Source: a virus
Virus record (IMG/VR): IMGVR_UViG_3300027714_000011
Span: 1-64,000 of that record
DNA length: 64,000 bases
Direction: 5' to 3' (one strand)
The position numbers were made by a program, and so were the translations under genes. The notes beneath the pieces are model-generated. The model made no database searches. It was not told the DNA's origin and saw nothing but the letters and a program-made list of their open reading frames with translations. Positions 3,366 through 54,015 of this stretch are shown here, piece by piece. Numbering within the stretch: position 1 is the first letter of the stretch; each line of letters begins with the position of its first letter.

Positions 3366-6300
3366 ATGCCAACTGTTTCAAATCAAAACATAATCATAGT
3401 ATTGCCAGAATTGGCACGTATTATTAGAGGACAAGCAAACAGTATAGATTTGGTGTTACACCAAGACTATATTGGAAACCAATTAAATATTGGTCTTGCA
3501 ACTGAAGTAAAAATAGAACTATATGACGTTAATAACTCTTTAGTCCAAACTGTTTCAAAATCAGGAGCCAATCTTACATATGGATCTCCTAACTCAGAAT
3601 CACAGGGTAAGATTTCTCTAGCATTAACCGCAGATCAAACAGCTGCATTACCGTTTGGAGCTACTGAAGTATCAGGAGCTTTAAAAGCAAAGGTATATGT
3701 AACTCTAGGAATTAATTTAGTTCAATTACCTACACTTAAATTAGCAAACATATATGACGCTGGAGATATTATTGGTGATATAGTTGCTAGTAGATTTACT
3801 TTACCGGGTTCGGTTTATAAAGTAAAATCATTTACTATTGCAGATAAACCAAGTGGAGGTGAAATAATACTGAATGATACCAATCCTTCAGGCGTAACTA
3901 AAATTAGAATATCGGTTACAGATGATAAGGGATATAGAAATGCTTATCTTGAATCTATATTAGAAAATAGAATTGATGTTGATGGAGTATTAGTATCATT
4001 ATTCTTAACTAACGTACATAATAATAGTGAGTATTCTACTTTTGAAATTAAAAGCTGGAGCAGAGTTGATGTATTAAACTCAAATCCTGCATCTCCTTTA
4101 TTAGATGACGATAGTGATGCAATAGAATTAATAGTTGCAGCAGAAGGTAATTCAACTATTGGAACCGAGGTATATGACATATCTACAGGTGATCAGTTAG
4201 GTATCTTTACAGAATCTTACTCTTCACCGCATGGTATATCAATTACACCAAGCGGATTAGCTACAATAACAGACGTTAATAATCTTACATTTTCAGGTGG
4301 AGCAATAGTCAATCAATTAGGAAACGGCAACGTTGATGTTGTATTTCCTTCAGTTGTAGTAACTACTTCTGGAACTAGTGGATCTTCAGGAATTGATGGT
4401 CTTAACGGTGAAGCTGGAACATCTGGAATTGACGGTCTTAATGGAACATCTGGAATTGACGGAACATCTGGAATTGACGGTCTTAATGGAACATCTGGAA
4501 TTGACGGAACATCAGGAATTGATGGTCTTAATGGAACATCTGGAATTGATGGAACATCTGGAACCGATGGTGTAACTGGAGCTAAAGGTGATCAAGGTGA
4601 TGCTGGAGCTAAAGGTGACGTTGGAGCTACTGGAGTACAAGGTATTCAAGGCGTTAAAGGTGATGTTGGAAACGACGGAGCTAATGGAATTGATGGAGTA
4701 GCTGGAACTAATGGAACATCTGGAATTGACGGCATAAACGGAGTTAAAGGTGATCAAGGTGATACTGGAGCTAAAGGCGATACTGGAGTACAAGGTATTC
4801 AAGGTGATCAAGGTATTCAAGGATTATTCGGACATGATGGTATTGATGGAGTAGCTGGAGATCCTGGAAGTGATGGATTAGATGGTGTTGATGGTGCTAG
4901 CGGAACTTCTGGTACTAATGGAGAGAATGGTGCAGCTGGAGCTGACGGTGCTAACGGTGCCGATGGAACTTCTGGTATTAATGGAGTAGATGGAGCTAAA
5001 GGTGATCAAGGCGATACTGGAATACAAGGTGAAGTTGGAGCTAAAGGCGATCAAGGTGAAGTTGGAGCTAAAGGTGATGTTGGAAACGATGGAGCTAATG
5101 GAACATCTGGGATTGATGGTATACGCGGAGCTAAAGGCGATCAAGGTGATCAAGGTGATGCTGGAATACAAGGTATTCAAGGTGAAGTTGGAGCTAAAGG
5201 CGATCAAGGTGATAATGGAACATCAGGTATTAATGGAACATCAGGTATTAATGGAACATCAGGTATTAATGGTATTCAAGGTGATACTGGTCTTAAAGGT
5301 GATCAAGGCGATACTGGAATACAAGGTGTTCAAGGTGTCAAAGGTGATGCTGGAAACAATGGAACATCTGGTATCGATGGTATTCAAGGTATTCAAGGTG
5401 AAGTTGGAGCTAATGGAACATCAGGAATTGATGGTATAAACGGAGCTAAAGGTGATCAAGGCGATACTGGAATACAAGGTGTTCAAGGTGTTCAAGGTGT
5501 TCAAGGTGAAGTTGGAGCTAAAGGTGATCAAGGTGATCAAGGTGTTAAAGGTGATGCTGGAAACGATGGAGCTGATGGATCACAAGGTGTTAAAGGTGAT
5601 GCTGGAAACGATGGAGCTGATGGTAATAATGGAACATCAGGAATTGATGGAGCTAAGGGTGATCAAGGTGATGCTGGTCTTAAAGGAGATCAAGGTGATC
5701 AAGGAGCACAAGGTACTATTGGAATACAAGGCGTTCAAGGTGAAGTTGGAGCTAAGGGTGATCAAGGTGATCAAGGCGTTAAAGGTGATGCTGGTAATAA
5801 CGGAGCACAAGGTAACGATGGAACTAACGGTTCTTCAGGAATTAATGGAGCTGCTGGTAATAACGGAGCACAAGGTAACGATGGAACTAGTGGTTCTTCA
5901 GGAATTAATGGAGCTGCTGGTAATAACGGAGCACAAGGTAACGATGGAACTAGTGGTTCTTCAGGAATTAAAGGTGATCAAGGTAATACAGGTGATGCTG
6001 GAGCCGCAGCGACAGGATCATTAGTTTCTTATAGAATTAAAGTCAATATGTTATCTAACAGTGTTAATTCAACCACACCTATCGCAAACGTATGGTCACC
6101 AGGCGGAGTAGAAATATATAATTCAACCGATGGTTGGTCTGTATCTGGATGGAATATTGCTAGATCAAATAACAATTTAACACTTACTCACACGTTGGCT
6201 AAACCGATATTAATGGGAACAGCACAAGGTAGAAACGGTTCTAACTTATTTGTCTCACAGTTTATTGGTAAAAATGCATCTACTTTATCTATACAAAATG

Positions 6301-6407
6301 TCGATGGAAATGCATATGTAAAATTCAACGGTATAACAAGTATCAATACAGGTGCTGCAACAGGTGGAGCCACAGATGTGATCATAACATTTGTAGTAGA
6401 ATCATAA
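3366..6407 (+). CDS. Collagen-like fibre protein with G-X-Y repeats
   Basis: A 1013-residue protein in three parts. Residues 1 to about 335 are a globular anchor with beta-rich, Ig-like segments. Residues 336 to about 880 form an uninterrupted Gly-X-Y array of roughly 180 triplets of two kinds, GTSGIDGLNG and GAKGDQGDTGIQG. About 130 residues at the end form a globular tip (GSLVSYRIKVNML to VIITFVVES). G-X-Y arrays fold as collagen triple helices and are common in phage tail fibres and tips. Few prolines occur in the array, as in other phage collagens, where K/D/Q pairs replace hydroxyproline for stability. A 63-base unit (GNNGAQGNDGTSGSSGINGA plus A) is repeated nearly three times at 5790-5969. 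The protein is probably a host-contact fibre; the attachment site on the virion is unknown. Confidence 0.85.
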   Translation: MPTVSNQNIIIVLPELARIIRGQANSIDLVLHQDYIGNQLNIGLATEVKIELYDVNNSLVQTVSKSGANLTYGSPNSESQGKISLALTADQTAALPFGATEVSGALKAKVYVTLGINLVQLPTLKLANIYDAGDIIGDIVASRFTLPGSVYKVKSFTIADKPSGGEIILNDTNPSGVTKIRISVTDDKGYRNAYLESILENRIDVDGVLVSLFLTNVHNNSEYSTFEIKSWSRVDVLNSNPASPLLDDDSDAIELIVAAEGNSTIGTEVYDISTGDQLGIFTESYSSPHGISITPSGLATITDVNNLTFSGGAIVNQLGNGNVDVVFPSVVVTTSGTSGSSGIDGLNGEAGTSGIDGLNGTSGIDGTSGIDGLNGTSGIDGTSGIDGLNGTSGIDGTSGTDGVTGAKGDQGDAGAKGDVGATGVQGIQGVKGDVGNDGANGIDGVAGTNGTSGIDGINGVKGDQGDTGAKGDTGVQGIQGDQGIQGLFGHDGIDGVAGDPGSDGLDGVDGASGTSGTNGENGAAGADGANGADGTSGINGVDGAKGDQGDTGIQGEVGAKGDQGEVGAKGDVGNDGANGTSGIDGIRGAKGDQGDQGDAGIQGIQGEVGAKGDQGDNGTSGINGTSGINGTSGINGIQGDTGLKGDQGDTGIQGVQGVKGDAGNNGTSGIDGIQGIQGEVGANGTSGIDGINGAKGDQGDTGIQGVQGVQGVQGEVGAKGDQGDQGVKGDAGNDGADGSQGVKGDAGNDGADGNNGTSGIDGAKGDQGDAGLKGDQGDQGAQGTIGIQGVQGEVGAKGDQGDQGVKGDAGNNGAQGNDGTNGSSGINGAAGNNGAQGNDGTSGSSGINGAAGNNGAQGNDGTSGSSGIKGDQGNTGDAGAAATGSLVSYRIKVNMLSNSVNSTTPIANVWSPGGVEIYNSTDGWSVSGWNIARSNNNLTLTHTLAKPILMGTAQGRNGSNLFVSQFIGKNASTLSIQNVDGNAYVKFNGITSINTGAATGGATDVIITFVVES
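5790..5969 (+). repeat. 63-base tandem repeat inside the collagen-like gene
   Basis: Nearly three in-frame copies, starting at 5790, 5853 and 5916. The first differs by AAC for AGT in one codon. Each encodes 21 residues, that is seven G-X-Y triplets. The near identity points to recent expansion or slippage. Confidence 0.85.
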
Positions 6408-10420: not shown

Positions 10421-13390
10421 ATGTCTCAATTGAAACTAAAACAAATACTTGAATTCATATCAGATTCACCTGTTACTGGTGATGTACTGGCATATAATTC
10501 GGCGACTGGTAAATACGAAAACGGAGCTCTACCAAATACATTTGGTCTTCGATATAAATATAACACTGCAATTACAGGATCAGTTGCAAATGGTTTTTTC
10601 AGATTTGATGATCCATCATCTCCTACCAATGTAACAATAAGTGAAAGAGATTTATTAGGAAATAACGCAATTCCTTCGTTAGTTGCTATGACAGCGTCTA
10701 CAAATGACAGAAAATCTGTCGTTGTTTTTGCAAGCGCTAACGACGGAAATATATCTAAAACATTTTATGTTAAATCTGTTGCGGTTGGTACAAATGAAAG
10801 AGTATTTGAATTAGAGCCTATATCAAGTTCTAGTTGGGGATTAATGACAAATAATGATGAAACATTCATGTTTATTCAACCTATTGGTAACGTTGGTACA
10901 TCTGGTTCTTCTGGAACTAATGGAACTAATGGAACTAATGGTACATCTGGTTCTTCCGGAACAAACGGGACATCAGGAACTAACGGTACAAACGGAACAT
11001 CGGGAACGAATGGAACTAACGGAACATCGGGAACTAGTGGAACTAACGGATCTTCTGGAATTAATGGTACAAATGGGACATCAGGAATTAATGGTACAAA
11101 TGGGACATCAGGAACTAGTGGAACCAATGGAACGAATGGTTCTTCTGGAACTAATGGAAGTTCAGGAACTAATGGGACATCAGGAGCTAATGGATCAAGC
11201 GGATCATCAGGAACGAATGGAACTAACGGGACATCAGGAATAAATGGAGTAAGTTCTTCTATTGAATTAACAGAAGAAGCTGTTACAGGTCTAGAGGGAA
11301 CTCCAGTTAGTGTTGTAAATGTAGGTACAGAGAGTGCTGCTAAATTAGAGTTTACAATTCCAGTGGGTGCAACAGGTTTACGAGGATTACCTGGAACTCC
11401 AGGAACAAGCGGAAGTTCAGGAACGAATGGTTCTTCAGGAACTAATGGAACTAACGGTACATCAGGTTCTTCAGGAACTGATGGAACTTCAGGAACTGAT
11501 GGATCAAGTGGATCTTCAGGAACTAATGGAACTTCAGGAAATGATGGAACAAGTGGAAGCTCAGGTTCTTCAGGTTCTTCTGGAACTAACGGTACTTCTG
11601 GAACTGATGGAACTTCAGGTTCTTCAGGTTCTTCAGGAACAGACGGAACTAGTGGAACAAACGGAACATCAGGTTCTTCAGGAACTGATGGAAGTTCAGG
11701 TTCTTCAGGAACTAATGGAACTAGTGGAACAAACGGAACTAGTGGAACAAACGGAACATCAGGTTCTTCAGGAACTGATGGAACTAGTGGAACTAACGGT
11801 ACATCAGGAACTGATGGAAGTTCAGGTTCTTCAGGAACGAATGGAACAAGTGGAACTAGTGGAACTAACGGTACATCAGGAACTGATGGAAGTTCAGGTT
11901 CTTCAGGAACGAATGGAACTAACGGAACATCAGGTTCTTCAGGAACTGATGGAAGTTCAGGTTCTTCAGGAACTGATGGAACGAGTGGAACTAACGGTTC
12001 TTCAGGAACTGATGGAAGTTCAGGTTCTTCAGGAACTGATGGAACTAGTGGAACAAACGGAAGTTCAGGTTCTTCAGGAACGAATGGTTCTTCTGGAACT
12101 AACGGTACAAATGGTACATCAGGAACGAATGGTACATCAGGAACTAAAGGTGATCAAGGTAATCCAGGTTGGGGTGTTTCAATGCAAGGACAAGTAGCTA
12201 CATCATCAAATTTGCCAGCTACTGGTAATTCAGATGGTGATGCATATATAGTACAATCAGATGATTCACTTTGGGTATTTACACAAGCCGATGGTTGGAT
12301 TGGAGGTGGTTCTATTCAAGGACCACAAGGTAACGCTGGTACTTCAGGAACGAATGGAACTAACGGAACATCAGGTTCTTCAGGAACTAATGGAACTAGC
12401 GGAAGTTCAGGAACTGATGGAAGTTCAGGTTCTTCAGGAACAAATGGAACTAGTGGAACAAACGGAACTTCTGGTTCTTCAGGAACTGATGGAACTTCTG
12501 GTTCTTCAGGAACTGATGGAACTAGTGGAACAAACGGAACTAGTGGAAGTTCAGGTTCTTCAGGAACAAATGGAACTAGTGGAACAAATGGAACATCAGG
12601 TTCTTCAGGAACGAATGGAACTTCAGGTTCTTCAGGAACAAATGGAACTAGTGGAACAAACGGAAGTTCAGGTTCTTCAGGAACGAATGGTTCTTCTGGA
12701 ACGAATGGAACATCAGGAACAAACGGAACTTCTGGTTCTTCAGGTGTTAATGGTCTTGATGGTGTAGATGGTATCTCTGGAACTTCAGGTGTTAGTGGAA
12801 CTTCAGGTTCTTCAGGAACGAATGGAAGTTCAGGTTCTTCAGGAACGAATGGAACTAGTGGAACGAATGGAAGTTCAGGTTCTTCAGGAACGAATGGAAC
12901 TAGTGGAACGAATGGAAGTTCAGGTTCTTCAGGAACTAATGGAACTAATGGTTCTTCGGGTTCTTCTGGTCTTGACGGTGAAACAGGAACATCTAATACA
13001 TATGCAACTGCAATGAACCAATACACAAATACTGGTTCAGATGTACAGCACGCTGATTTATATTTGACAGGTCGTTTACAAAGAGAAATGATAGTAGCAA
13101 ATAACGGAGCAATTCCAGTACAAACAGGCGATGCCTTCATTATTAATGCAGACGGTGTAGTAACTATCAGTATGACTGGATTAAACACTTCATGTGCTGG
13201 TCAATCAGGAACTATTGTAATCGTCAACAGCGCAGGAGGATCAGATTTTAGCCAATTGCCAGCATATATGTTAACACCATCAGGTGCAGATATAGAATTT
13301 GTAACCGAGCCTTATGCTGTTTCAATTATATCATACCATATATTAAGTCAAACGCAAGTACTTTGTAACTATATAGGCCATTTTGCATAA
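10421..13390 (+). CDS. Second collagen-like fibre, Gly-Thr-Ser/Gly-Thr-Asn repeats
   Basis: A 989-residue protein. It opens with MSQLKLKQILEF and a tail-fibre-like LAYNSATGKYEN motif. Residues from about 157 on are G-X-Y arrays made almost only of GTSG, GSSG, GTNG and GTDG. Two globular inserts break the array: one at about 280-325 (beta, then GATGLRGLPGTPG) and one at about 585-635 that contains DGDAYIVQSDDSLWVFTQA and ends in IQGPQG, a small domain common in phage fibres before collagen segments. The last 130 residues form a beta-rich tip (LYLTGRLQREMIV to VLCNYIGHFA). The K/D/Q pairs that stabilise bacterial collagens are nearly absent, so this Ser/Thr/Asn-only array may be stabilised otherwise, for example by glycans (inference). 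Confidence 0.85.
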   Translation: MSQLKLKQILEFISDSPVTGDVLAYNSATGKYENGALPNTFGLRYKYNTAITGSVANGFFRFDDPSSPTNVTISERDLLGNNAIPSLVAMTASTNDRKSVVVFASANDGNISKTFYVKSVAVGTNERVFELEPISSSSWGLMTNNDETFMFIQPIGNVGTSGSSGTNGTNGTNGTSGSSGTNGTSGTNGTNGTSGTNGTNGTSGTSGTNGSSGINGTNGTSGINGTNGTSGTSGTNGTNGSSGTNGSSGTNGTSGANGSSGSSGTNGTNGTSGINGVSSSIELTEEAVTGLEGTPVSVVNVGTESAAKLEFTIPVGATGLRGLPGTPGTSGSSGTNGSSGTNGTNGTSGSSGTDGTSGTDGSSGSSGTNGTSGNDGTSGSSGSSGSSGTNGTSGTDGTSGSSGSSGTDGTSGTNGTSGSSGTDGSSGSSGTNGTSGTNGTSGTNGTSGSSGTDGTSGTNGTSGTDGSSGSSGTNGTSGTSGTNGTSGTDGSSGSSGTNGTNGTSGSSGTDGSSGSSGTDGTSGTNGSSGTDGSSGSSGTDGTSGTNGSSGSSGTNGSSGTNGTNGTSGTNGTSGTKGDQGNPGWGVSMQGQVATSSNLPATGNSDGDAYIVQSDDSLWVFTQADGWIGGGSIQGPQGNAGTSGTNGTNGTSGSSGTNGTSGSSGTDGSSGSSGTNGTSGTNGTSGSSGTDGTSGSSGTDGTSGTNGTSGSSGSSGTNGTSGTNGTSGSSGTNGTSGSSGTNGTSGTNGSSGSSGTNGSSGTNGTSGTNGTSGSSGVNGLDGVDGISGTSGVSGTSGSSGTNGSSGSSGTNGTSGTNGSSGSSGTNGTSGTNGSSGSSGTNGTNGSSGSSGLDGETGTSNTYATAMNQYTNTGSDVQHADLYLTGRLQREMIVANNGAIPVQTGDAFIINADGVVTISMTGLNTSCAGQSGTIVIVNSAGGSDFSQLPAYMLTPSGADIEFVTEPYAVSIISYHILSQTQVLCNYIGHFA

Positions 13391-13418: not shown

Positions 13419-16400
13419 ATGAAGAATATAGGATTTTCGAAGATTGATTTCTGGAGTACTGGTAGCGGCGTGGGAACAAGTCACACCACAAACAAGAGTA
13501 CTACGACCACGTGGAGCACTAGTAAATCTACTACAGAACAACGAAGCACAACTAGGTCTACTAAAACAGCGTTCAATACTAGTCAATCTACTAGTACTGT
13601 ATGGACAACTACTTGGGCAACTTCAAAGAATACTTCTACTACATGGAATACATCTCATAGTACAACTACTACTTGGGCAACTTCACAAAGTACGACTACT
13701 ACATGGACAACTACATGGACAACTTCAAGAGGCACTGATAGATTAACAGATAAATCAACTACTACTACTTGGACAACTTCAAGGGGTACTGATAGATTAA
13801 CAGATAAATCAACTACAACTTTTTGGACAACTAAATGGAATACTAGTCAGTCAACGTCAACAGTATGGACTACGGTATGGCAAACTAGTTTAGGAACTGA
13901 GAAATCTACTACAACTACATACAATACTTCTTGGACTACATCATGGAATACTAGTCAATCAACAACTACAGTTTATACAAGTGCGTATAACACTTCTTGG
14001 TCTACTAATAGAGGAACATCTAGATCAACTGATCATTCCACGGTTACTGTGTATACGACTACGTGGTCAACATCCAGAGTAACGTCAACTGCATATACTA
14101 CTTATTTTAACACAACATGGTCAACTAGTCAATCTACTGAACATTCCACAGTTACAGTATATACGACTACTTGGTCAACTAGTAAAGGTACTAATAGAGG
14201 AACATCACATTCTACAACAACTACTTGGAATACAAGTAAAGGAACATCACATTCTACAGTTACAACATATACGACTACTTGGTCAACTAGTAAGGGTACT
14301 AGTAGATCAACTAACCACTCGACTACAACTACATTTAATACAAGCCAGTCGACGAGCAGAGCTACGACTACTGTATATACAACTACATGGCAAACTAGTC
14401 GCGGTACTTCTAGGGGTACAGCACATTCAACGACAACTAAATGGAATACTAGTCAGTCAACAAGCAAATCTACAACAACTGCGTATACTACTTACTATAA
14501 TACAACTAGAGGAACTAGTAGAGGAACTAGTAAAGCCACAACAACAACATGGCAAACTAGTAAGGGCACATCACATTCAACAGTGACTGTATATACAACA
14601 ACATGGCAAACTAATCACGGTACTTCTAGAGGCACGGCGCATTCAACAACAACTAAATGGAATACTAGTCAGTCAACAAGTAGAACTACTACAACGTCTT
14701 ATACTACTTATTATAACACAACTAGGGGAACTTCTAGGGGAACTAGCAAAGCTACTACAACTACATGGTCAACGAGTAGAGGTACATCACATTCAACTAC
14801 TACAGCGTATACAACTACGTTTAATACTAGTAGAGCAACAACTACTGCATGGACTACGTCATGGACTACTACTTTTGGAACTAGTAGAGGTACACAACAT
14901 GCAACAACAACTACGTGGACAACAACATGGTCAACGAGTAGAGCTACAACAACTTCATATACAACTACATTTAACACTAGTAGAGGAACTAATAGAGGAA
15001 CTAGTAAATCTACTACAACTACATGGCAAACCAGTAGAGGTACATCACATTCAACTCAGACAACATATAATACTAGTTGGAACACAACTAGGGCTACAAC
15101 AACGTCATATAATACATCGTGGACTACTACGTTTGCAACGACACATTCAACATCTAGAGCCACTACTACGACGTGGGCAACGAGTAGAGGTACATCGCAT
15201 TCAACTACTACAGCGTATACAACTACGTTTAATACTAGTAAAGCAACAACAACTACATGGACTACTTCATGGACAACCACTTATGGAACTAGTAGAGGTA
15301 CGCAACACGCAACAACAACTGCGTGGACAACAACATGGTCAACGAGTAAATCTACAACAACTGCTTATACTACTTATTATAATACAACTAGAGGAACTAG
15401 TAGAGGAACTAGTAAATCTACTACAACCACATGGGGAACTAGTAAAGGTACATCACATTCAACAGTCACAGTGTATAATACTAGTTGGAATACATCTAGA
15501 AACACGACGACTTCATGGACTACTTCATGGACAACTACGTTTGCAACGACCCATTCAACATCTAGAGCCACTACTACAACGTGGAACACCACTAGGGCTA
15601 CAACGACTTCGTGGACTACTTATTATAATACCAGTAGAGGAACTAATAGAGGAACTAGTAAATCTACTACTACGACATGGCAAACTAGTCACGGTACATC
15701 ACGTTCAACAACGACTACGTATAATACTAGTTGGAACACTAGTAAAGCAACAACGACTTCATGGACAACTTCATGGACAACTACGTTTGCAACGACCCAT
15801 TCGACATCTAAAGCCACTACTACGACGTGGCAAACTAGTCGCGGTACATCACGTTCAACAACAACTACGTATAATACTGCTTGGAATACATCTAAAAACA
15901 CGACCACTACATTTAATACAACAGTTTATACCGTATTCGCAACGAGTAGAGGTACATCAAAGTCAACGACTACCAAATATGGTACATCAAAGTCAACGAC
16001 TACCACATTTGGTACATCACATTCAACAACGACTGCATGGGTTGCTTCTAGAGGTACATCTAAGTCTACGACGACACAGTGGAGTACTGCTTGGAATACA
16101 TCTAAGTCTACAACGACTAGGTATAACACTAGTAAATCAACGACTACTGTATGGGCTACTTCTTGGGCGACGTCTAAGTCAACTACGACTACTTGGTTGA
16201 CATCTAGGTCTACGACCACTACGTTTAATACTAGTAAATCAACGACTACTACGTTTAACACTAGTAAATCAACGACTACATCATGGTCGTATAATGTTGG
16301 TACATCTAGAACGACACTTAAACATTATTCTAAAACAACACTTAAGACGTATAATAGATCAACATATATTGATCGAAGTACAGTATATAATACTAGTTGG

Positions 16401-17054
16401 ACACAATCCTCAGCAATCAACACGGCATGGAGTACTAGTTATTATATAAACACAAAATGGACAACAGGTAGAAGCACAGTATCAGAGGAAATAGAGTGTA
16501 TAGTAGAAGGCTCATTAGTGCATATTTCAACAACACAACAAGTTAAAGTTGAAACATTGCAACCAGGTGATCCTATTTTAACATTAGATGGAACGTTCAA
16601 TCTCGATGATGAGGATTTATTATTTGCATTAAAAGAAGACCAACTTTCCGATATAAAATCAAATGATGATTATATATCAGCAATCATGGTTTCTCAAGTT
16701 ACAGGCGTATGCGATATAAACAACGGTTTATTAAAAACAACACTCAATCACATTCATATTGTAAAAAGAACTGTTCCAGATTCAGAAATTAAAAAATGGA
16801 TTGCAATAGAAGGTTATCAACTAGTGGTTGGTGATATTTTATGGCACATCACTAATGGAGAAATTCCTATAACATCAGTAGCAGTAGACGAAACAAACAT
16901 ATATACTGTATATAAACTAGACGTTGAACCAAATGATGTCTTTTATGCTAACGGTATTTTAACGCATAACAGGAAATGTGATCCGGAGGAATATTGCAAC
17001 CGCCGCAATATATGTTACGATCGATCAAAATGTTTGGACGATGGACAGTTTTAA
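13419..17054 (+). CDS. Thr-rich repeat protein with C-terminal Hint domain
   Basis: A 1211-residue protein. Residues 1 to about 1020 are built from degenerate units of about ten residues of the form [ST]-T-T-T-[WYF]-x-T-S-[RK]-[AGS]. Close to half of the residues are Thr; Trp/Tyr/Phe and Lys/Arg/His recur at fixed places, proline is absent and acidic residues are rare. Residues 1027-1184 form a Hint domain: Cys1027 in CIVEGSLVHI (block A), VETLQPGDPILTLDG, the block B TxxH (TLNH), and YANGILTHN ending in His1183-Asn1184. The residue after Asn is Arg, so canonical splicing is not expected. The protein ends in 27 residues with four Cys spaced exactly six apart. The repeat part is probably an extended fibre. 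The Hint domain could cleave or attach it. Confidence 0.85.
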   Translation: MKNIGFSKIDFWSTGSGVGTSHTTNKSTTTTWSTSKSTTEQRSTTRSTKTAFNTSQSTSTVWTTTWATSKNTSTTWNTSHSTTTTWATSQSTTTTWTTTWTTSRGTDRLTDKSTTTTWTTSRGTDRLTDKSTTTFWTTKWNTSQSTSTVWTTVWQTSLGTEKSTTTTYNTSWTTSWNTSQSTTTVYTSAYNTSWSTNRGTSRSTDHSTVTVYTTTWSTSRVTSTAYTTYFNTTWSTSQSTEHSTVTVYTTTWSTSKGTNRGTSHSTTTTWNTSKGTSHSTVTTYTTTWSTSKGTSRSTNHSTTTTFNTSQSTSRATTTVYTTTWQTSRGTSRGTAHSTTTKWNTSQSTSKSTTTAYTTYYNTTRGTSRGTSKATTTTWQTSKGTSHSTVTVYTTTWQTNHGTSRGTAHSTTTKWNTSQSTSRTTTTSYTTYYNTTRGTSRGTSKATTTTWSTSRGTSHSTTTAYTTTFNTSRATTTAWTTSWTTTFGTSRGTQHATTTTWTTTWSTSRATTTSYTTTFNTSRGTNRGTSKSTTTTWQTSRGTSHSTQTTYNTSWNTTRATTTSYNTSWTTTFATTHSTSRATTTTWATSRGTSHSTTTAYTTTFNTSKATTTTWTTSWTTTYGTSRGTQHATTTAWTTTWSTSKSTTTAYTTYYNTTRGTSRGTSKSTTTTWGTSKGTSHSTVTVYNTSWNTSRNTTTSWTTSWTTTFATTHSTSRATTTTWNTTRATTTSWTTYYNTSRGTNRGTSKSTTTTWQTSHGTSRSTTTTYNTSWNTSKATTTSWTTSWTTTFATTHSTSKATTTTWQTSRGTSRSTTTTYNTAWNTSKNTTTTFNTTVYTVFATSRGTSKSTTTKYGTSKSTTTTFGTSHSTTTAWVASRGTSKSTTTQWSTAWNTSKSTTTRYNTSKSTTTVWATSWATSKSTTTTWLTSRSTTTTFNTSKSTTTTFNTSKSTTTSWSYNVGTSRTTLKHYSKTTLKTYNRSTYIDRSTVYNTSWTQSSAINTAWSTSYYINTKWTTGRSTVSEEIECIVEGSLVHISTTQQVKVETLQPGDPILTLDGTFNLDDEDLLFALKEDQLSDIKSNDDYISAIMVSQVTGVCDINNGLLKTTLNHIHIVKRTVPDSEIKKWIAIEGYQLVVGDILWHITNGEIPITSVAVDETNIYTVYKLDVEPNDVFYANGILTHNRKCDPEEYCNRRNICYDRSKCLDDGQF
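16497..16970 (+). other. Hint (hedgehog/intein) domain coding segment
   Basis: This segment encodes residues 1027-1184 of the first Thr-rich protein. It has the nucleophile Cys at the domain start, TxxH in the middle and a terminal His-Asn, the residues used for N-S acyl shift and Asn cyclisation. No homing endonuclease is inserted, as the domain is only about 158 residues. The next residue is Arg, as in bacterial intein-like (BIL) domains rather than true inteins. Confidence 0.87.
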
Positions 17055-24269: not shown

Positions 24270-24581
24270 ATGAGCGATTTTAACGACGAAGACTTCAACA
24301 TGGACGACTTCATGAATGAAAGCAATAGCGATTTCGAAATGAAATTGGAAGAATACAGAGATAACATGATGTCTATTGCAATAAATGCAAACTATGATAA
24401 CATTAAAAAGAATGGAATCAATGAGTGGCACCTAAGACACTTGCATGAGGTAGAGCTTATAGATTTGGACAGAACATTCAAAATGATGATTGATTATTTT
24501 GAAGAACATGAAGATTATGAAAAGTGTGCATTTGTCTTAGAGCATCAAAAAAAGATAAGTTCTATTATTAAAGACATGTAG
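24270..24581 (+). CDS. Small helical protein of the phage E-Y-E-x-C family
   Basis: A 103-residue acidic protein. It starts with MSDFNDEDFNMDDFMNESN and ends in MIDYFEEHEDYEKCAFVLEH, the shared C-terminal pattern of this window's paralogue set (1188, 25844, 26398). The start lies three bases after the previous stop. Function unknown. Confidence 0.7.
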   Translation: MSDFNDEDFNMDDFMNESNSDFEMKLEEYRDNMMSIAINANYDNIKKNGINEWHLRHLHEVELIDLDRTFKMMIDYFEEHEDYEKCAFVLEHQKKISSIIKDM

Positions 24582-24853: not shown

Positions 24854-25064
24854 ATTAGCAAAAGAACTTATTGTTCAATTAAAAAGGATTGCAGACGCAT
24901 TAGAAAGTTCTAATAAAACATTAGAGACTTCTGAGAAACGATCGGTTATTCTAGAAAAACTACAAGAGAAAAACTTAAGAGCTGACTTAAGAGAAAAACT
25001 TAATATTGAAGAACCTACAACTAGACCATCCCCTAGATTAGAAAAAAATGATGGATCCGTATAA
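24843..25064 (+). CDS. Hypothetical coiled-coil protein, 73 aa
   Basis: A charged helical protein (LAKELIVQLKRIADALESSN, then KRSVILEKLQEKN) that ends in a Pro/Arg-rich tail. It overlaps the preceding gene by 11 bases and the J-domain gene by 17, in different frames, which suggests translational coupling. Function unknown. Confidence 0.6.
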   Translation: MEDKLAKELIVQLKRIADALESSNKTLETSEKRSVILEKLQEKNLRADLREKLNIEEPTTRPSPRLEKNDGSV

Positions 25065-25854
25065 TATATTAGGAGTAGATAAATCATCTTCACAAGACGA
25101 TATTAAAAAAGCGTATAGATCATTAGCTAAGAAGCATCATCCTGATAAAAACAATGGAGATGATGTTAAATTCAAAGAAATTGCTGATGCTTATGAAAGG
25201 ATAGGGGATCCTTCATCTAGAAAGGATTATGATCAGGCTTCCAATTTTCAAAACTTTAATGGATTCGATGGGCGAGTTAATATGTCCGATGTATTCGATC
25301 AGGTTTTTGGCAATGCATTTGGTTCTAATAAACAATCAACTAAAGGTGATAATCTCAGATTAGATTTACACTTAAGTTTTGATGAAGCATATTCAGGGAC
25401 TAGTAAACAATTCGCAGTAAACGGAAAAGATTTAAAGGTAGATTTTAAACCTGGTTTAAAAACAGGAATGAAACTTAGAATCAGTGGAAAGGGACAACCT
25501 CATCAATACAATAGTACCTTACCAAATGGAGATCTCATAGTCCACATACATGTTATGTTTAGACCAGAATGGATACTACAAGGTGATGATATATGGTTAG
25601 AATTAAATTTACCATGGTATGATATAACGATTGGTACTAAAATAGCAGTTGACACACCAGAGGGTAAGATATACATCAATGTTCCTAAGAATAGTTATCC
25701 TGGAAAAACACTAAGAATTAGGGATAGAGGCTATCCTATATATGGCACAGAAAATAAAGGTGCACTTTTATGTAAATTAAACGCAACATATTCTGACTTA
25801 AATGAGGAACAATTAGAATATATAAAGAAAGTAAAAGACGCTTATGATGGATGA
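25048..25854 (+). CDS. DnaJ/CbpA-like co-chaperone
   Basis: A 268-residue protein. Residues 3-65 are a full J domain (DPYNILGVDKSSSQDDIKKA, with HHPDK and a DYDQ end). A short Gly/Phe/Asn linker (FQNFNGFDGRVNMSD) follows, then two beta-barrel substrate-binding domains typical of CbpA-type J proteins (from LRLDLHLSFDEAYSG; later PWYDITIGTKIAVDTPEGK). The Cys-rich zinc module of DnaJ is absent. The protein would recruit host DnaK to chosen clients. Two ATG codons stand at the start; the second (25051) gives the usual MDPYNILG form. It is the second J-domain gene in the window. Confidence 0.9.
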   Translation: MMDPYNILGVDKSSSQDDIKKAYRSLAKKHHPDKNNGDDVKFKEIADAYERIGDPSSRKDYDQASNFQNFNGFDGRVNMSDVFDQVFGNAFGSNKQSTKGDNLRLDLHLSFDEAYSGTSKQFAVNGKDLKVDFKPGLKTGMKLRISGKGQPHQYNSTLPNGDLIVHIHVMFRPEWILQGDDIWLELNLPWYDITIGTKIAVDTPEGKIYINVPKNSYPGKTLRIRDRGYPIYGTENKGALLCKLNATYSDLNEEQLEYIKKVKDAYDG

Positions 25855-26110
25855 TAGTTTATTTAGTGGCAAGAATCAGAATTGGTTCAGAGTATTTGAC
25901 AATTTAATTGTTAATGATGAAGACGCGTTTTATAATATGCTCTACATGGCCATAACTAAACATCCTTCATATGTTATAATGTCAGACCTAGAGATTGATC
26001 GCAAAGAGACTATTTTAGGTGTAATGTTAAAACACTTTGAAAACAAAGAAGAATTTGAAAAATGTGCTAGCATTTACAATATAAAAAAACAAATTAAAAC
26101 AATATGCTGA
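25844..26110 (+). CDS. Small helical protein of the phage E-Y-E-x-C family
   Basis: An 88-residue member of the paralogue set. The C-terminus, MLKHFENKEEFEKCASIYNI, has Phe in place of Tyr before EKC. It overlaps the J-domain gene by 11 bases. Function unknown. Confidence 0.7.
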   Translation: MMDDSLFSGKNQNWFRVFDNLIVNDEDAFYNMLYMAITKHPSYVIMSDLEIDRKETILGVMLKHFENKEEFEKCASIYNIKKQIKTIC

Positions 26111-26286
26111 TTATAGAGGTAAATAAAGATAACATAGAAAAAGCTCTAAAACAATACAAGAGAAAGGTTATTAATACCAAACAATTAAAAAAACTAAGGG
26201 ATCAGCAGAATTTTACCAAACCATCTGCCAGAAAAAGATTGAAACTCCAAAAGGCTAAATATCTACAGTCTAGATTTCAATCATAA
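26104..26286 (+). CDS. Small basic protein, 60 aa (bS21-like composition)
   Basis: A 60-residue, highly basic helical protein (IEVNKDNIEKALKQYKRKVI, then KQLKKLRDQQNFTKPSARKR). The order of a short beta strand, N-x-E-[KE]-A-L-[KR]-x-[YF]-K-[RK]-K and then a basic arm with a P-S-x-[KR]-[RK] stretch closely follows ribosomal protein bS21, which many phages encode. In bS21 this stretch reads KPSxRRR. I judge a bS21 homologue likely. In Bacteroidota bS21 is linked to how the ribosome handles the anti-Shine-Dalgarno region. It overlaps the previous gene by 7 bases. Confidence 0.65.
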   Translation: MLIIEVNKDNIEKALKQYKRKVINTKQLKKLRDQQNFTKPSARKRLKLQKAKYLQSRFQS

Positions 26287-26397
26287 TAATATATTAATAA
26301 ATTATCCTAATAAGAAAAAAACAAATAGGACAATTTATACATTAATATATACAATGTAGAATATACATTCTACCAAAAAAGACAGGTAATTCAAAAG
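26287..26397 (+). other. 111-base gap with a small hairpin
   Basis: An AT-rich gap with a perfect 7-base hairpin (26356-26362 with 26367-26373, ATAC loop). It is followed by A residues, not T, so it is not a terminator on this strand. It stands 24 nt before the next start and could affect translation. No promoter motif of the two repeated types was seen here. Confidence 0.45.
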
Positions 26398-26658
26398 ATG
26401 GCAGGCTTTATTTCAAATTCAGATAAGGATAGTTTAATGAGAGCTAGTTATTATCAAATAACTAGAAACTTCACCAAGACAGTGAACAGATTCATCGCGT
26501 TTAAAGATTCTGACAGAATAGTTGAAATACCACACGGTATCAAACAACGTAGTAAATTTATAGATTTAATGATCAAGTATTTTGAATCTCTAGAAGAGTA
26601 TGAGAAGTGCACTAAATTATTAAAACTAAAAGAACTTGTCATAATGGCAGGGGATTAA
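26398..26658 (+). CDS. Small helical protein of the phage E-Y-E-x-C family
   Basis: An 86-residue member of the paralogue set that ends MIKYFESLEEYEKCTKLLKL. The N-terminal part is basic (SYYQITRNFTKTVNRFIAF). It precedes phoH by 20 nt. Function unknown. Confidence 0.7.
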   Translation: MAGFISNSDKDSLMRASYYQITRNFTKTVNRFIAFKDSDRIVEIPHGIKQRSKFIDLMIKYFESLEEYEKCTKLLKLKELVIMAGD

Positions 26659-26678: not shown

Positions 26679-27386
26679 ATGAGTAGAGGAACTGAAAAGC
26701 AAACGAGACAGAGCAAAGGCGGAACAATTGATTCCGGTTTAAAACGAGTTACACTTAGACAATCCCAACACAAATATGTAAAAACAATAGAAGAAAACGA
26801 TATCACATTTTGTTACGGACCAGCAGGAACATCAAAAACATTTACAGCATGTTTCGTAGCACTTAAATTATTACAAGAAAAGAAGATTAAAGAAATTATC
26901 CTTTGTAAGCCCATTCAAGAGGCAGGTGAAAAGTTAGGATTTTTACCAGGTACTAAAGAAGAAAAGATGGATCCTTACATGAATTCGTATGTGTCAAACA
27001 TTACGAAAATCGTAGGAGGACAACAAGCAAAATATTTATTTGATAGTAAAACTATTAGATTTGAACCACTTGCATATATGAGAGGCGACACTTTCGATGA
27101 TGCACTTATGGTTTTAGATGAGGCACAGAACGCCACGTTTAAACAACTGATGTTATTTGTTACTCGTATGGGTAAAAGCAGTAGAGTAGTTGTAACAGGA
27201 GATGTTAGTCAACATGATATCGCTAGACAACATGTTGGTCTTCCTGGTTTTATAGAAATCATGAAAGGCGTAAAAGGAATAGGCGTCCACGTATTTGATA
27301 ACAAAGATATTGTTAGAGCTAAGATTTTACAGGAAGTTGTACAGAGGTATGATGATTGGAAATCTAAAAACGAAAGTAAATTTTAG
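26679..27386 (+). CDS. phoH: PhoH-like ATPase
   Basis: A 235-residue protein. The Walker A motif is GPAGTSKT (47-54), where Ser replaces the usual Gly, and Walker B is VLDEAQN (145-151), followed by TGDVSQHD, the PhoH sensor segment. The PhoH family is an SF1-like ATPase linked to RNA metabolism and phosphate stress and is very common in marine phages. The length is typical of the core ATPase domain without an added PIN domain. It stands between small unknown genes and RNase HII, an RNA-related neighbourhood. Confidence 0.93.
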   Translation: MSRGTEKQTRQSKGGTIDSGLKRVTLRQSQHKYVKTIEENDITFCYGPAGTSKTFTACFVALKLLQEKKIKEIILCKPIQEAGEKLGFLPGTKEEKMDPYMNSYVSNITKIVGGQQAKYLFDSKTIRFEPLAYMRGDTFDDALMVLDEAQNATFKQLMLFVTRMGKSSRVVVTGDVSQHDIARQHVGLPGFIEIMKGVKGIGVHVFDNKDIVRAKILQEVVQRYDDWKSKNESKF

Positions 27387-27428: not shown

Positions 27429-28061
27429 ATGGATCAATATAAAATACTATTAAAACACAGTCACACTGGTGAGCAATCTATTATAGAGATTGGATTAGAC
27501 GAAGCAGGCCGAGGAGCACTTGCAGGTCCAGTTACTGTCGCAGCATGTATTATGCCATTTGGATTTCAACATGAAATCATTAAAGACTCCAAACTATTAA
27601 GTGAACCACAACGAGTAGATGCAAGGCGCATGGTATTAGAGAACGCGTTGGCGTGGTCTGTAGTACACATTCCAGTCGAAGAGATAGAATCTACTAATAT
27701 TTTAAAAGCTACGCTGAATGGCATGAGGGTGTGCTTGGACAACGTTAAAAAAGATCATGATTTTGATTTTATTTTAGTAGACGGAGATCAATTTCATGGT
27801 TACGATGGAATTCCTTTTGAAACAGTAGTCGGAGGAGACAACATATACACCAATATTGCAGCAGCTTCTATTCTAGCCAAAACAGAAAGAGATCTTCTTA
27901 TGAAAGGATTGAGTAGTGATTTTCCAGAATACGGATGGGGTTCTAATAAAGGATATGGCACTAAACAACATAGAGACGCCATCGTAAGCGAAGGAGCAAC
28001 TGATCATCATAGAAATTCATTCATTAGTCACATGTTGACTACAACCAATACTTTATTTTGA
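27429..28061 (+). CDS. rnhB: Ribonuclease HII
   Basis: A 210-residue RNase HII. Motif I is GLDEAGRGALAGPV with catalytic Asp24-Glu25 and the GRG loop. The third acid is Asp118 in VDGD and the fourth is probably Asp137 in GGD. The signature AAASILAKTERD (144-155) follows. It cleaves RNA in RNA-DNA hybrids and single ribonucleotides in DNA. T4-type phages usually use a 5'-nuclease-type RNase H to remove primers, so a type 2 enzyme here may replace it. The length is close to the bacterial form. Confidence 0.93.
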   Translation: MDQYKILLKHSHTGEQSIIEIGLDEAGRGALAGPVTVAACIMPFGFQHEIIKDSKLLSEPQRVDARRMVLENALAWSVVHIPVEEIESTNILKATLNGMRVCLDNVKKDHDFDFILVDGDQFHGYDGIPFETVVGGDNIYTNIAAASILAKTERDLLMKGLSSDFPEYGWGSNKGYGTKQHRDAIVSEGATDHHRNSFISHMLTTTNTLF

Positions 28062-34814: not shown

Positions 34815-35513
34815 ATGAAACATTTAAAAACATTTGGTGACTTTCTAGTTGAAGGAAGATCAGCATACGATGGATTAGCATCTAAACTTACTAAAGCAAT
34901 ATTTAACAAATGGGTTAAATCTTATAAAGGCGGGAACGATGCTATTAATTACGCAGATCAAATAGAAGAAAGAGGCTTAGAATTTGATATTGAAGCTACT
35001 ATTCATATTGATAAAAAGTTTAAGGGATTTGAAGTTATTGATTCAACTGGGGCAGATGGTAGAGACGATGACGATGACGGTGATTTTCAAACACCATTTA
35101 TTAATATAGATTTTGGAATAAATCCAGAGTGGATTCCTGGTGAATGGTCAGAAGTTTATTTTCATTTAGCAGATGTTGTCCGCCATGAAATGGAACACAT
35201 TACACAAGACGGTATCGATCACGGTAATTATAGAAAGGGCAAACCTAATGAGGATGATAGTGAATTAAGAGCTTATATAAAAATGGGACTTTTACCAAAA
35301 TCACAATATCTTATGTTACCTAAAGAAGTAGATGCTAATTTACAGGGACTTAGGTTTGAAGCTAAGAAAAGAAAGAAATCAATGATCGACACTGTTAACA
35401 AATATCTGGACACTCAAGAACAAGGCGGAACTATTAACGGTGAAGAACGAGAAATTGTGTTAGATTTATGGAGACGAAGAGCTGAAAAAATAGGAGGTAT
35501 ACCTAAATTTTAA
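34815..35513 (+). CDS. HExxH metallopeptidase-like protein with capsid-targeting-like N-terminus
   Basis: A 232-residue protein. The N-terminus MKHLKTFGDFLVEGR fits the T4 capsid-targeting pattern with an L-x-E/G cleavage site at 13/14. The zinc motif is His124-Glu-x-x-His128 in VVRHEMEHITQD, with Glu171 (PKEVDANLQG) as a likely third ligand, as in gluzincin-type peptidases. An acidic Asp loop (DGRDDDDDGD, 81-90) comes before it. It may be packaged and injected, or act in head maturation. The zinc motif is visible; peptidase activity and packaging are inferred. Confidence 0.68.
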   Translation: MKHLKTFGDFLVEGRSAYDGLASKLTKAIFNKWVKSYKGGNDAINYADQIEERGLEFDIEATIHIDKKFKGFEVIDSTGADGRDDDDDGDFQTPFINIDFGINPEWIPGEWSEVYFHLADVVRHEMEHITQDGIDHGNYRKGKPNEDDSELRAYIKMGLLPKSQYLMLPKEVDANLQGLRFEAKKRKKSMIDTVNKYLDTQEQGGTINGEEREIVLDLWRRRAEKIGGIPKF

Positions 35514-35514
35514 C

Positions 35515-35967
35515 ATGAAGCATATTAAATTATTTGAAGAATTTACGGCCAATCAAGTTACGTGTGATAATTGTGGATGGTCTTGGGAAATAGAAGACGG
35601 TGGAGATGATGTGTTCCTTTGTCATAAATGCGAACATGATAATGACAATGTGATCGGAGAAGAATATGTTTTACAAGATTTAGAAAAGGAATTAGGAATT
35701 TCTTTGGATTTATGGGACAATGGAGAGTATTTAACCTTGAGTAGAATAGTAATATCTAAAGAGCATCGAGGTTCTGGAATAGGAACAGATGCAATGGCAA
35801 GGATTATAGACTTTGCAGATAAATATAGTAAAGATATAAGATTAACTCCATCTAAGGATTTCGGTGCAACTTCGGTTGCAAGATTACAAAAGTTCTATAA
35901 AGGATTTGATTTCGTAAAAAATAAGGATTATAAATATAAGGACACTATGGTTCGATACGCCAAATAA
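35515..35967 (+). CDS. Zinc-ribbon GNAT acetyltransferase with capsid-targeting-like N-terminus
   Basis: A 150-residue protein. Residues 1-10 (MKHIKLFEEF) fit the shared start, but the I/L-x-E cleavage site is missing. Residues 17-39 form a zinc ribbon (CDNCGWSW ... FLCHKC) of a type found in phage virion-associated proteins. Residues 55-150 form a GNAT fold with the acetyl-CoA loop in VISKEHRGSGIGTDAMAR (R-G-x-G-I-G) and a typical ARLQKFYKGFDFV end. Substrate unknown. It starts one base after the previous stop. Confidence 0.75.
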   Translation: MKHIKLFEEFTANQVTCDNCGWSWEIEDGGDDVFLCHKCEHDNDNVIGEEYVLQDLEKELGISLDLWDNGEYLTLSRIVISKEHRGSGIGTDAMARIIDFADKYSKDIRLTPSKDFGATSVARLQKFYKGFDFVKNKDYKYKDTMVRYAK

Positions 35968-52731: not shown

Positions 52732-54015
52732 ATGAACAACGAAAAAAACAAGAGGATCAGAATCGGTGAGAACACGCCGAAGGAGACCAAAGTTGAAGAA
52801 CTAGATGTAAAAGTCGAAAACTTAAAAGAAGATGAAGTTGTAGAAAACTTCTATAACGAAGAGGGGGAATTCATGTGGGATGAATTCGAAGCTACTTGCC
52901 CATCTAGAACTCGAAAACCAAATCCACATATCAAAACTCAAAATGGAGATAAAGTATATTCTCGAGAAGTATACGCTCAAGAGATGTATGATATGCTTAC
53001 TGCACATGATGATAGTATTGGGCAACTAATCACTATTATTAATCCTGGAGAAATTCACGAGGGTAAGGTATATGCTATCAATTCTGAGTTTATCAGTGTA
53101 GATATTGGATATAGAGAATTAATTTATGTTAAATATGACAAAGAACCAGCTGACGTACAGTCTCTTAAACCTGGAGATGAAACTGCGGTTCTTATTACAC
53201 AACCTAGTAAAAATTCGCACGTCTTAGGTTCTATTAGTGGTGGAGTAAAACACAAAGTGTTTATGGATCTTAGAGAAGCTGTAGAAACTGGAGGAACTGC
53301 ATGGGTAGGAAATGTCACACATATGATTGAAAATGGTGGATACATGGTGAACGTTCAAGGAATTGATTGTTTTATGCCAGGTTCATTAGCAGGTATTAAT
53401 AAACTACATGACTTTAGTTCTATTATTGGAACTGAAATGTATGTCGTTCCGGTGAGTTTCTCTCCAGACAGAGGTACATTAGTAGTTTCTCATAGAAAAT
53501 ATCTACAAGCACTGATACCTGGCGAAATAGACACACTAAAAGAAACACAAGGAGAAACACTAACTGGAAATGTTACTGGAACTGCTAAATATGGAGTATT
53601 TGTTGAGTTTAATAAATGTTTAACTGGAATGATTCATAATAATGATTTAGACGAGGAGACATTAGTTAAATTTAAAGCTAGAGAAATTAAGCCAGGTGAT
53701 GAAATTTCATTTATGGTTAAAGATATAATCAGCAATTCAAAAATTACACTGACTCAGAAAGCAAACATAACTATCAACCCATGGACAGATATTATAAGTA
53801 GATATCAAATACCAAGTGTTGTCGAGGCTGTTGTTAGAACTAAAAAGGATTACGGCTTATTCGTTACAATCGAAGAAGGTGTGACTGGATTACTACATGT
53901 CAGTGAAGTCGGAGAGGATGTAATGAGCGTATTTAAATCAGGGGATCCAATCACGGTACAGATCAATAGGATTGATGTTGACTCGATGAAAGTCTTTTTG
54001 AAAATGCCTCAATAA
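52732..54015 (+). CDS. Ribosomal protein S1-like RNA-binding protein, four S1 domains
   Basis: A 427-residue protein. An acidic N-terminal region of about 95 residues precedes four S1/OB repeats: about 100-165 (GEIHEGKVYAINSEFISVDI), 180-260 (GTAWVGNVTHMIENGGYMVN), 275-345 (GETLTGNVTGTAKYGVFVEF) and 360-427 (VVEAVVRTKKDYGLFVTIEE, GVTGLLHVSEVG). E. coli S1 has six. S1 binds mRNA and brings it to the 30S subunit. The host group uses little Shine-Dalgarno pairing, so a phage S1 could steer ribosomes to A-rich phage leaders (inference). Its place in the late block, with its own promoter-like motif, is unusual. Confidence 0.85.
   Translation: MNNEKNKRIRIGENTPKETKVEELDVKVENLKEDEVVENFYNEEGEFMWDEFEATCPSRTRKPNPHIKTQNGDKVYSREVYAQEMYDMLTAHDDSIGQLITIINPGEIHEGKVYAINSEFISVDIGYRELIYVKYDKEPADVQSLKPGDETAVLITQPSKNSHVLGSISGGVKHKVFMDLREAVETGGTAWVGNVTHMIENGGYMVNVQGIDCFMPGSLAGINKLHDFSSIIGTEMYVVPVSFSPDRGTLVVSHRKYLQALIPGEIDTLKETQGETLTGNVTGTAKYGVFVEFNKCLTGMIHNNDLDEETLVKFKAREIKPGDEISFMVKDIISNSKITLTQKANITINPWTDIISRYQIPSVVEAVVRTKKDYGLFVTIEEGVTGLLHVSEVGEDVMSVFKSGDPITVQINRIDVDSMKVFLKMPQ

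Follow-up and report, generated by a model that had tools for sequence, protein, structure and literature searches.

A phage-encoded bS21 without a Shine-Dalgarno sequence in a probable virus of flavobacteria-like Bacteroidota and its possible role in ribosome retuning

Introduction

Ribosomal proteins are common in phages, and their use is unproven. Phage-encoded bS21 is already known from Bacteroidetes phages (Mizuno 2019; Chen 2022). The only viral bS21 tested so far, that of the Pelagibacter phage HTVC008M, enters E. coli ribosomes, which then show about 5% activity (PMC6375957). Phage bS21 is expressed late, and its packaging into the virion has been suggested as possible (Chen 2022, PMC9723584). 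In F. johnsoniae, the gene for bS21, rpsU, is autoregulated: ribosomes free of bS21 expose the anti-Shine-Dalgarno (ASD) and translate rpsU via an extended Shine-Dalgarno (SD) sequence, and in Bacteroidota rpsU a pairing stronger than -13 kcal/mol is typical (PMC9976891). Tyr54 of F. johnsoniae bS21 is reported to stack on A1534 of the 16S tail and to matter (PMC9976891). McNutt et al. suggested that, owing to this autoregulation, a host might replenish its bS21 once infected.

The following sections concentrate on a bS21 gene in a stretch of 64,000 nucleotides, denoted here as the window, which corresponds to positions 1 to 64,000 of the virus record IMGVR_UViG_3300027714_000011. On balance, we consider it slightly more probable than not that the phage protein replaces host bS21 in ribosomes during infection. 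The literature search was of partial coverage; within it, the DnaJ-PhoH gene context, the missing SD control, the start overlap, and the pairing with an S1-like gene were not found described.

Identity of the bS21 gene

An initial annotation, made from the sequence alone, had pointed to a very basic, bS21-like ORF of 60 residues. Position, length, and Lys/Arg richness are borne out; the ORF starts with ATG, encodes the protein MLIIEVNKDNIEKALKQYKRKVINTKQLKKLRDQQNFTKPSARKRLKLQKAKYLQSRFQS, and the strand opposite to it is interrupted by stops.

26104..26286, + strand: bS21 gene, 60 aa (Pfam, TIGR00030, PDB 7jil, AF2)

The profile search by which the annotation proposed to check its assignment agrees with bS21 throughout, with matches to Pfam PF01165 (2.3e-11, 43.6 bits against a cut-off of 27), to NCBIfam TIGR00030 (39.8 bits against 28.95), and to a PHROG named 'ribosomal protein S21'. 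Among solved structures, the top two chains in a PDB sequence search are both bS21, with 7jil_z as the best (3.6e-10, residues 1-56); 7JIL is the F. johnsoniae ribosome (Chen 2022, PMC9723584). The AlphaFold2 model (pLDDT 90.5) shows two basic helices (residues 11-34 and 40-59) with a short coil between them. A Foldseek comparison of this model with the PDB gave weak matches as the sole result, to mitoribosomal S21-type chains (E about 1). No second bS21 match is present in the whole virus record of 78,553 bases. On these sequence criteria, the ORF is certainly a true phage-encoded bS21; a chance ORF or spurious basic peptide is ruled out by the profile matches, purifying selection, and synteny.

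The record also contains tail matches, including a baseplate-wedge and a baseplate-hub protein, which point to a contractile-tailed phage. Two proteins of roughly 1000 aa with collagen-like or GTSG/GSSG repeats (3366-6407 and 10421-13390) are probably fibers. A very long Thr/Ser/Trp repeat protein is encoded at 13419-17054; the segment at its end (EGSLVHIS...DVFYANGILTHN) may be intein/Hint-like, with a Pfam Intein_splicing match of 0.0065 that stays below the cut-off.

Gene neighborhood

The bS21 gene is part of a same-strand run that comprises DnaJ, an 88 aa ORF, bS21, an 86 aa ORF, PhoH, and RNase HII:

25048..25854, + strand: DnaJ-like co-chaperone, conserved upstream neighbor (Pfam DnaJ 1.4e-21, DnaJ_C 8.4e-30; synteny)
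25844..26110, + strand: 88 aa ORF, stop codon inside bS21 codons 2-3 (7 nt overlap)
26079..26103, + strand: bS21 translation initiation region without SD, at the same time coding sequence of the upstream ORF (duplex dG with the 16S tail +1.6 kcal/mol)
26287..26397, + strand: intergenic stretch containing hairpins as well as an AT-rich, promoter-like motif that is conserved (no Rfam match)
26398..26658, + strand: 86 aa ORF, conserved downstream neighbor (61-98% identical in syntenic phages)
26679..27386, + strand: PhoH-like ATPase (Pfam 3.4e-65)
27429..28061, + strand: RNase HII (Pfam 3.4e-32)

A scan of viral contigs revealed relatives of the phage bS21 at 66 viral loci (45-81% identity). The order DnaJ-bS21-86aa-PhoH-RNase HII is common to one broad group (loci L002-L029, L031, L050, L052, L058-L065, and L316-L319, as far as each locus extends), in which some neighbors go down to 36-50% identity. 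The gene block is conserved over several divergent phage lineages, and bS21 has long been part of it. At locus L045, bS21 lies opposite to genes for a gp23 capsid, an S77 protease, a T4-type portal, and a terminase, the context described by Chen 2022; since the window shows the DnaJ-PhoH block instead, it represents a second, distinct bS21 context.

Three small ORFs near bS21 (24270-24581, 25844-26110, and 26398-26658) have a C-terminal FE-x-x-E-[DE]-[YF]-EKC motif in common and may be paralogues. In an alignment, the 86 aa ORF weakly resembles both the 88 aa ORF and the 103 aa ORF, and none of the three has a profile match below E 0.05. The intergenic stretch downstream of bS21 (26287-26397) harbors two hairpins, the arm sequences of which vary among relatives while pairing is seemingly kept (covariation judged by eye). 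A conserved motif resembling TTAATATATACAA precedes the 86 aa ORF by about 45 nt. The stretch may serve the 86aa-PhoH-RNase HII unit as a promoter and provide it with a 5' hairpin. As a genome-wide promoter motif, TTAATATATACAA was rejected, because its 9 matches in the window, against 13.6 expected, show no enrichment. An Rfam search near bS21 gave neither a leader nor any other match.

Selection and residue conservation

Comparison of the window bS21 with its relatives yielded pN values of 0.10-0.19 and pS values of 0.70-1.04, with synonymous changes near saturation; the phage bS21 is under strong purifying selection. Residues were compared between 30 distinct phage and 86 host bS21 copies (F. 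johnsoniae numbering). Every one of the 86 host copies has Tyr at position 54, as do 29 of the 30 phage copies; the remaining one carries His. The initial annotation had noted that bS21 of Bacteroidota takes part in sequestering the ASD; the residue corresponding to the ASD-stacking tyrosine, Y53 in the phage protein, is indeed kept. The conserved basic residues are retained as well, and the C-terminal contact helix is present in nearly all phage copies. The N-terminal helix differs: position 14 is K in 30/30 phage copies versus R in 85/86 host copies, position 18 is Q in 30/30 versus R in 86/86, and Q28 occurs in 29/30 phage copies. At two further positions, 13 (E13) and 27 (a basic residue), the phage copies agree with a second class of host bS21. 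The pattern fits that described by Chen 2022 (PMC9723584), with a conserved binding region and a divergent N-terminal helix.

These residues bear on two other explanations. Small basic proteins can be reused, and virion packaging is among the suggestions of Chen 2022 (PMC9723584), but a non-ribosomal RNA-binding role or carriage in the virion appears highly improbable given the retained Tyr54 contact and basic residues; the literature consulted documents no such role for a phage bS21. Alternatively, the phage gene could top up a limiting, exchangeable bS21 late in infection and leave ribosome selectivity unchanged. Conservation of Tyr54 and other C-terminal residues would agree with this, as would the conservation of the block together with chaperone and RNA-metabolism genes; the explanation is nevertheless rather unlikely, as the N-terminal helix is diagnostically unlike all sampled host copies (Q18 and K14). 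Replacement of host bS21 by a divergent phage version is preferred over both.

Translation initiation and coupling

SD strength was calculated as the duplex dG of the 25-base leader with the 16S tail, which we take to be UCACCUCCUUUCU. For the window bS21 leader it amounts to +1.6 kcal/mol, whereas an extended SD lies below -13 kcal/mol. Among 25 distinct phage bS21 leaders, 23 are weaker than -5 kcal/mol and none is below -13 kcal/mol, a value that is not passed by any of the 71 window genes either (0/71). Flavobacteriaceae bS21 leaders are bimodal: all 66 canonical rpsU leaders range from -16.8 to -22.1 kcal/mol, 21 leaders of second bS21 genes are weaker than -5 kcal/mol, and none falls between the two modes. 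As leaders without SD are the norm for the genes of this phage, the relevant point is the absence of host control and not an SD removed by selection; SD-less leaders are the default in the host group as well as in the phage, so the absence of an SD is not necessarily adaptive. A phage gene that lacks an rpsU-type SD is expected to be expressed when ribosomes are replete with bS21. The only fairly strong SD-like leader among the window starts examined (-11.6 kcal/mol) belongs to a gene start at 35490-35515, where the match falls in the coding end of the preceding gene.

The stop of the upstream 88 aa ORF overlaps the bS21 start (ATGCTGA). This overlap is conserved: among 14 lineage leaders it measures 7 nt in ten and 10 nt in two, the exceptions being L031, where the ORFs abut (0), and L006, where the upstream ORF ends 6 nt before bS21. 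Translational coupling of the two genes is probable, and ribosomes that finish the 88 aa ORF and reinitiate are the likely source of bS21.

The S1-like protein

The initial annotation had paired bS21 with an S1-like protein as a second protein at the mRNA platform of the 30S subunit, and this protein proved to be real:

52732..54015, + strand: S1-like protein, 427 aa, candidate 30S-platform partner (Pfam S1 4.5e-20; PDB bS1; co-occurrence)

Its residues 104-423 align with residues 16-341 of bS1 (PDB bS1, 1.3e-39), a range that corresponds to S1 domains 1 to 4. The S1-like gene was found in 26 of 37 bS21-bearing contigs and lies on the same strand as bS21, 17-33 kb downstream, in all 18 contigs measured. 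Lineage contigs without it (L004, L005, L009, L012) end too early. It is absent from L045 and L048, long Chen-type contigs with more than 60 kb downstream, and also from L067. Since the pairing is kept in every measured lineage contig that extends far enough and is missing in other bS21 phages, it is a lineage feature and not a general one. Viewed in reverse, bS21 occurs in 4 of 25 S1-like contigs, and these four are the only ones extending about 26 kb or more upstream (contig ranges, read by eye); the idea that the S1-like gene is more widespread than bS21 was rejected, the low count reflecting mostly contig truncation.

The lineage-wide pairing suggests that the target is the platform of the 30S subunit where mRNA is bound, and we infer that bS21 and the S1-like protein may act jointly in a translation takeover. 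That the genome also encodes an S1-like protein whose domains bind the ribosome would likewise suit a phage bS21 that mainly shuts down host translation, with phage mRNAs being served otherwise, e.g. by the S1-like protein. The low activity of E. coli ribosomes carrying a viral bS21 (PMC6375957) keeps this explanation alive, since substitution may inhibit and not redirect the ribosome, but that test was cross-species, and almost every phage copy preserves Tyr54 and the contact helix at the C-terminus. Shutdown is judged unlikely, and replacement with retained function remains the preferred reading.

Origin and host

Among species-representative genomes, the top cellular relatives all belong to Bacteroidota and nearly all to marine Flavobacteriaceae (up to 57% identity). 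Judged solely by these relatives, the host is likely of Flavobacteriia type, and the virus is probably a marine-type one of flavobacteria-like Bacteroidota. Phage bS21 copies, a sample drawn by similarity to the query, form one group in the tree (SH-aLRT 96), which puts the SD-less host paralogue between phage and canonical copies. Descent of the phage copies from this paralogue was not adopted, as the support for grouping the two is 86, short of significance, in a tree whose root is not fixed.

The paralogue is a second bS21 gene present in many Flavobacteriaceae, mostly with an HRN[IV]KVMQNLR stretch (L148-L165, L196-L221); it lacks an SD in every case examined and accompanies a single canonical rpsU, whose SD is very strong. 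At least two bS21 genes are found in about four in ten of the 149 sampled Flavobacteriaceae genomes. In Hanstruepera, the canonical rpsU adjoins genes for an integrase-type recombinase and an S30AE (HPF-type) protein, and the second bS21 gene is located elsewhere.

Proposed mechanism

In the mechanism proposed here, phage bS21 would take the place of host bS21, which is bound loosely, on the 30S platform of a Bacteroidota host. Tyr53 would keep the 16S 3' tail sequestered, and ribosomes would stay tuned to SD-less mRNAs, which include nearly all phage mRNAs, so that phage messages would be favored. The phage-specific N-terminal helix (K14, Q18, Q28) may add mRNA selectivity. Lacking an extended SD and probably coupled to the upstream ORF, phage bS21 could be produced while host ribosomes are full. 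Once ribosomes are filled with phage bS21, host rpsU might be switched down via its own loop, a step that is less certain than the replacement of host bS21.

A more far-reaching version is tentative and rather doubtful: bS21 and the four-domain S1-like protein would form a two-protein set for ribosome retuning, in which the coupled bS21 gene exploits rpsU autoregulation and converts the ribosome pool to the phage type. If true, host bS21 synthesis would be off while phage bS21 synthesis goes on. The features described above suggest that the loop considered by McNutt et al. could be turned round, with the phage using rpsU autoregulation to its own advantage. Flavobacterial rpsU offers a clean read-out, since the signal of an rpsU'-gfp fusion in F. 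johnsoniae depends on bS21 occupancy; combined with a phage bS21 gene outside rpsU control, this makes the takeover hypothesis directly testable.

Comparison with known systems

The phage protein shares its length, two-helix architecture, Tyr54, and the KPS and K-A-x-Y motifs with F. johnsoniae bS21 (7jil, rpsU). It differs in having K14/Q18/Q28 in place of R/R/T, in an N-terminal loop that is shorter by one residue, and in the absence of an extended SD from its gene. The second bS21 of Flavobacteriaceae resembles the phage copies in the lack of an SD and in E13 and K27; unlike these, it is cellular, keeps R14 and R18, and belongs to a separate tree group. The bS21 of Pelagibacter phage HTVC008M is phage-encoded as well and was shown to enter ribosomes, but it is of alphaproteobacterial type and host (Mizuno 2019, PMC6375957).

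The huge phages of Bacteroidetes (Chen 2022, PMC9723584) are aquatic and likewise encode a bS21 with Tyr54. Their copies are located on the reverse strand among TerL/portal/protease/MCP, antisense to the structural genes. No reverse-strand bS21 between TerL/portal and protease/MCP is found in the window, where the gene shares its strand with the other members of the DnaJ-PhoH-RNase HII block and the S1-like gene follows downstream.
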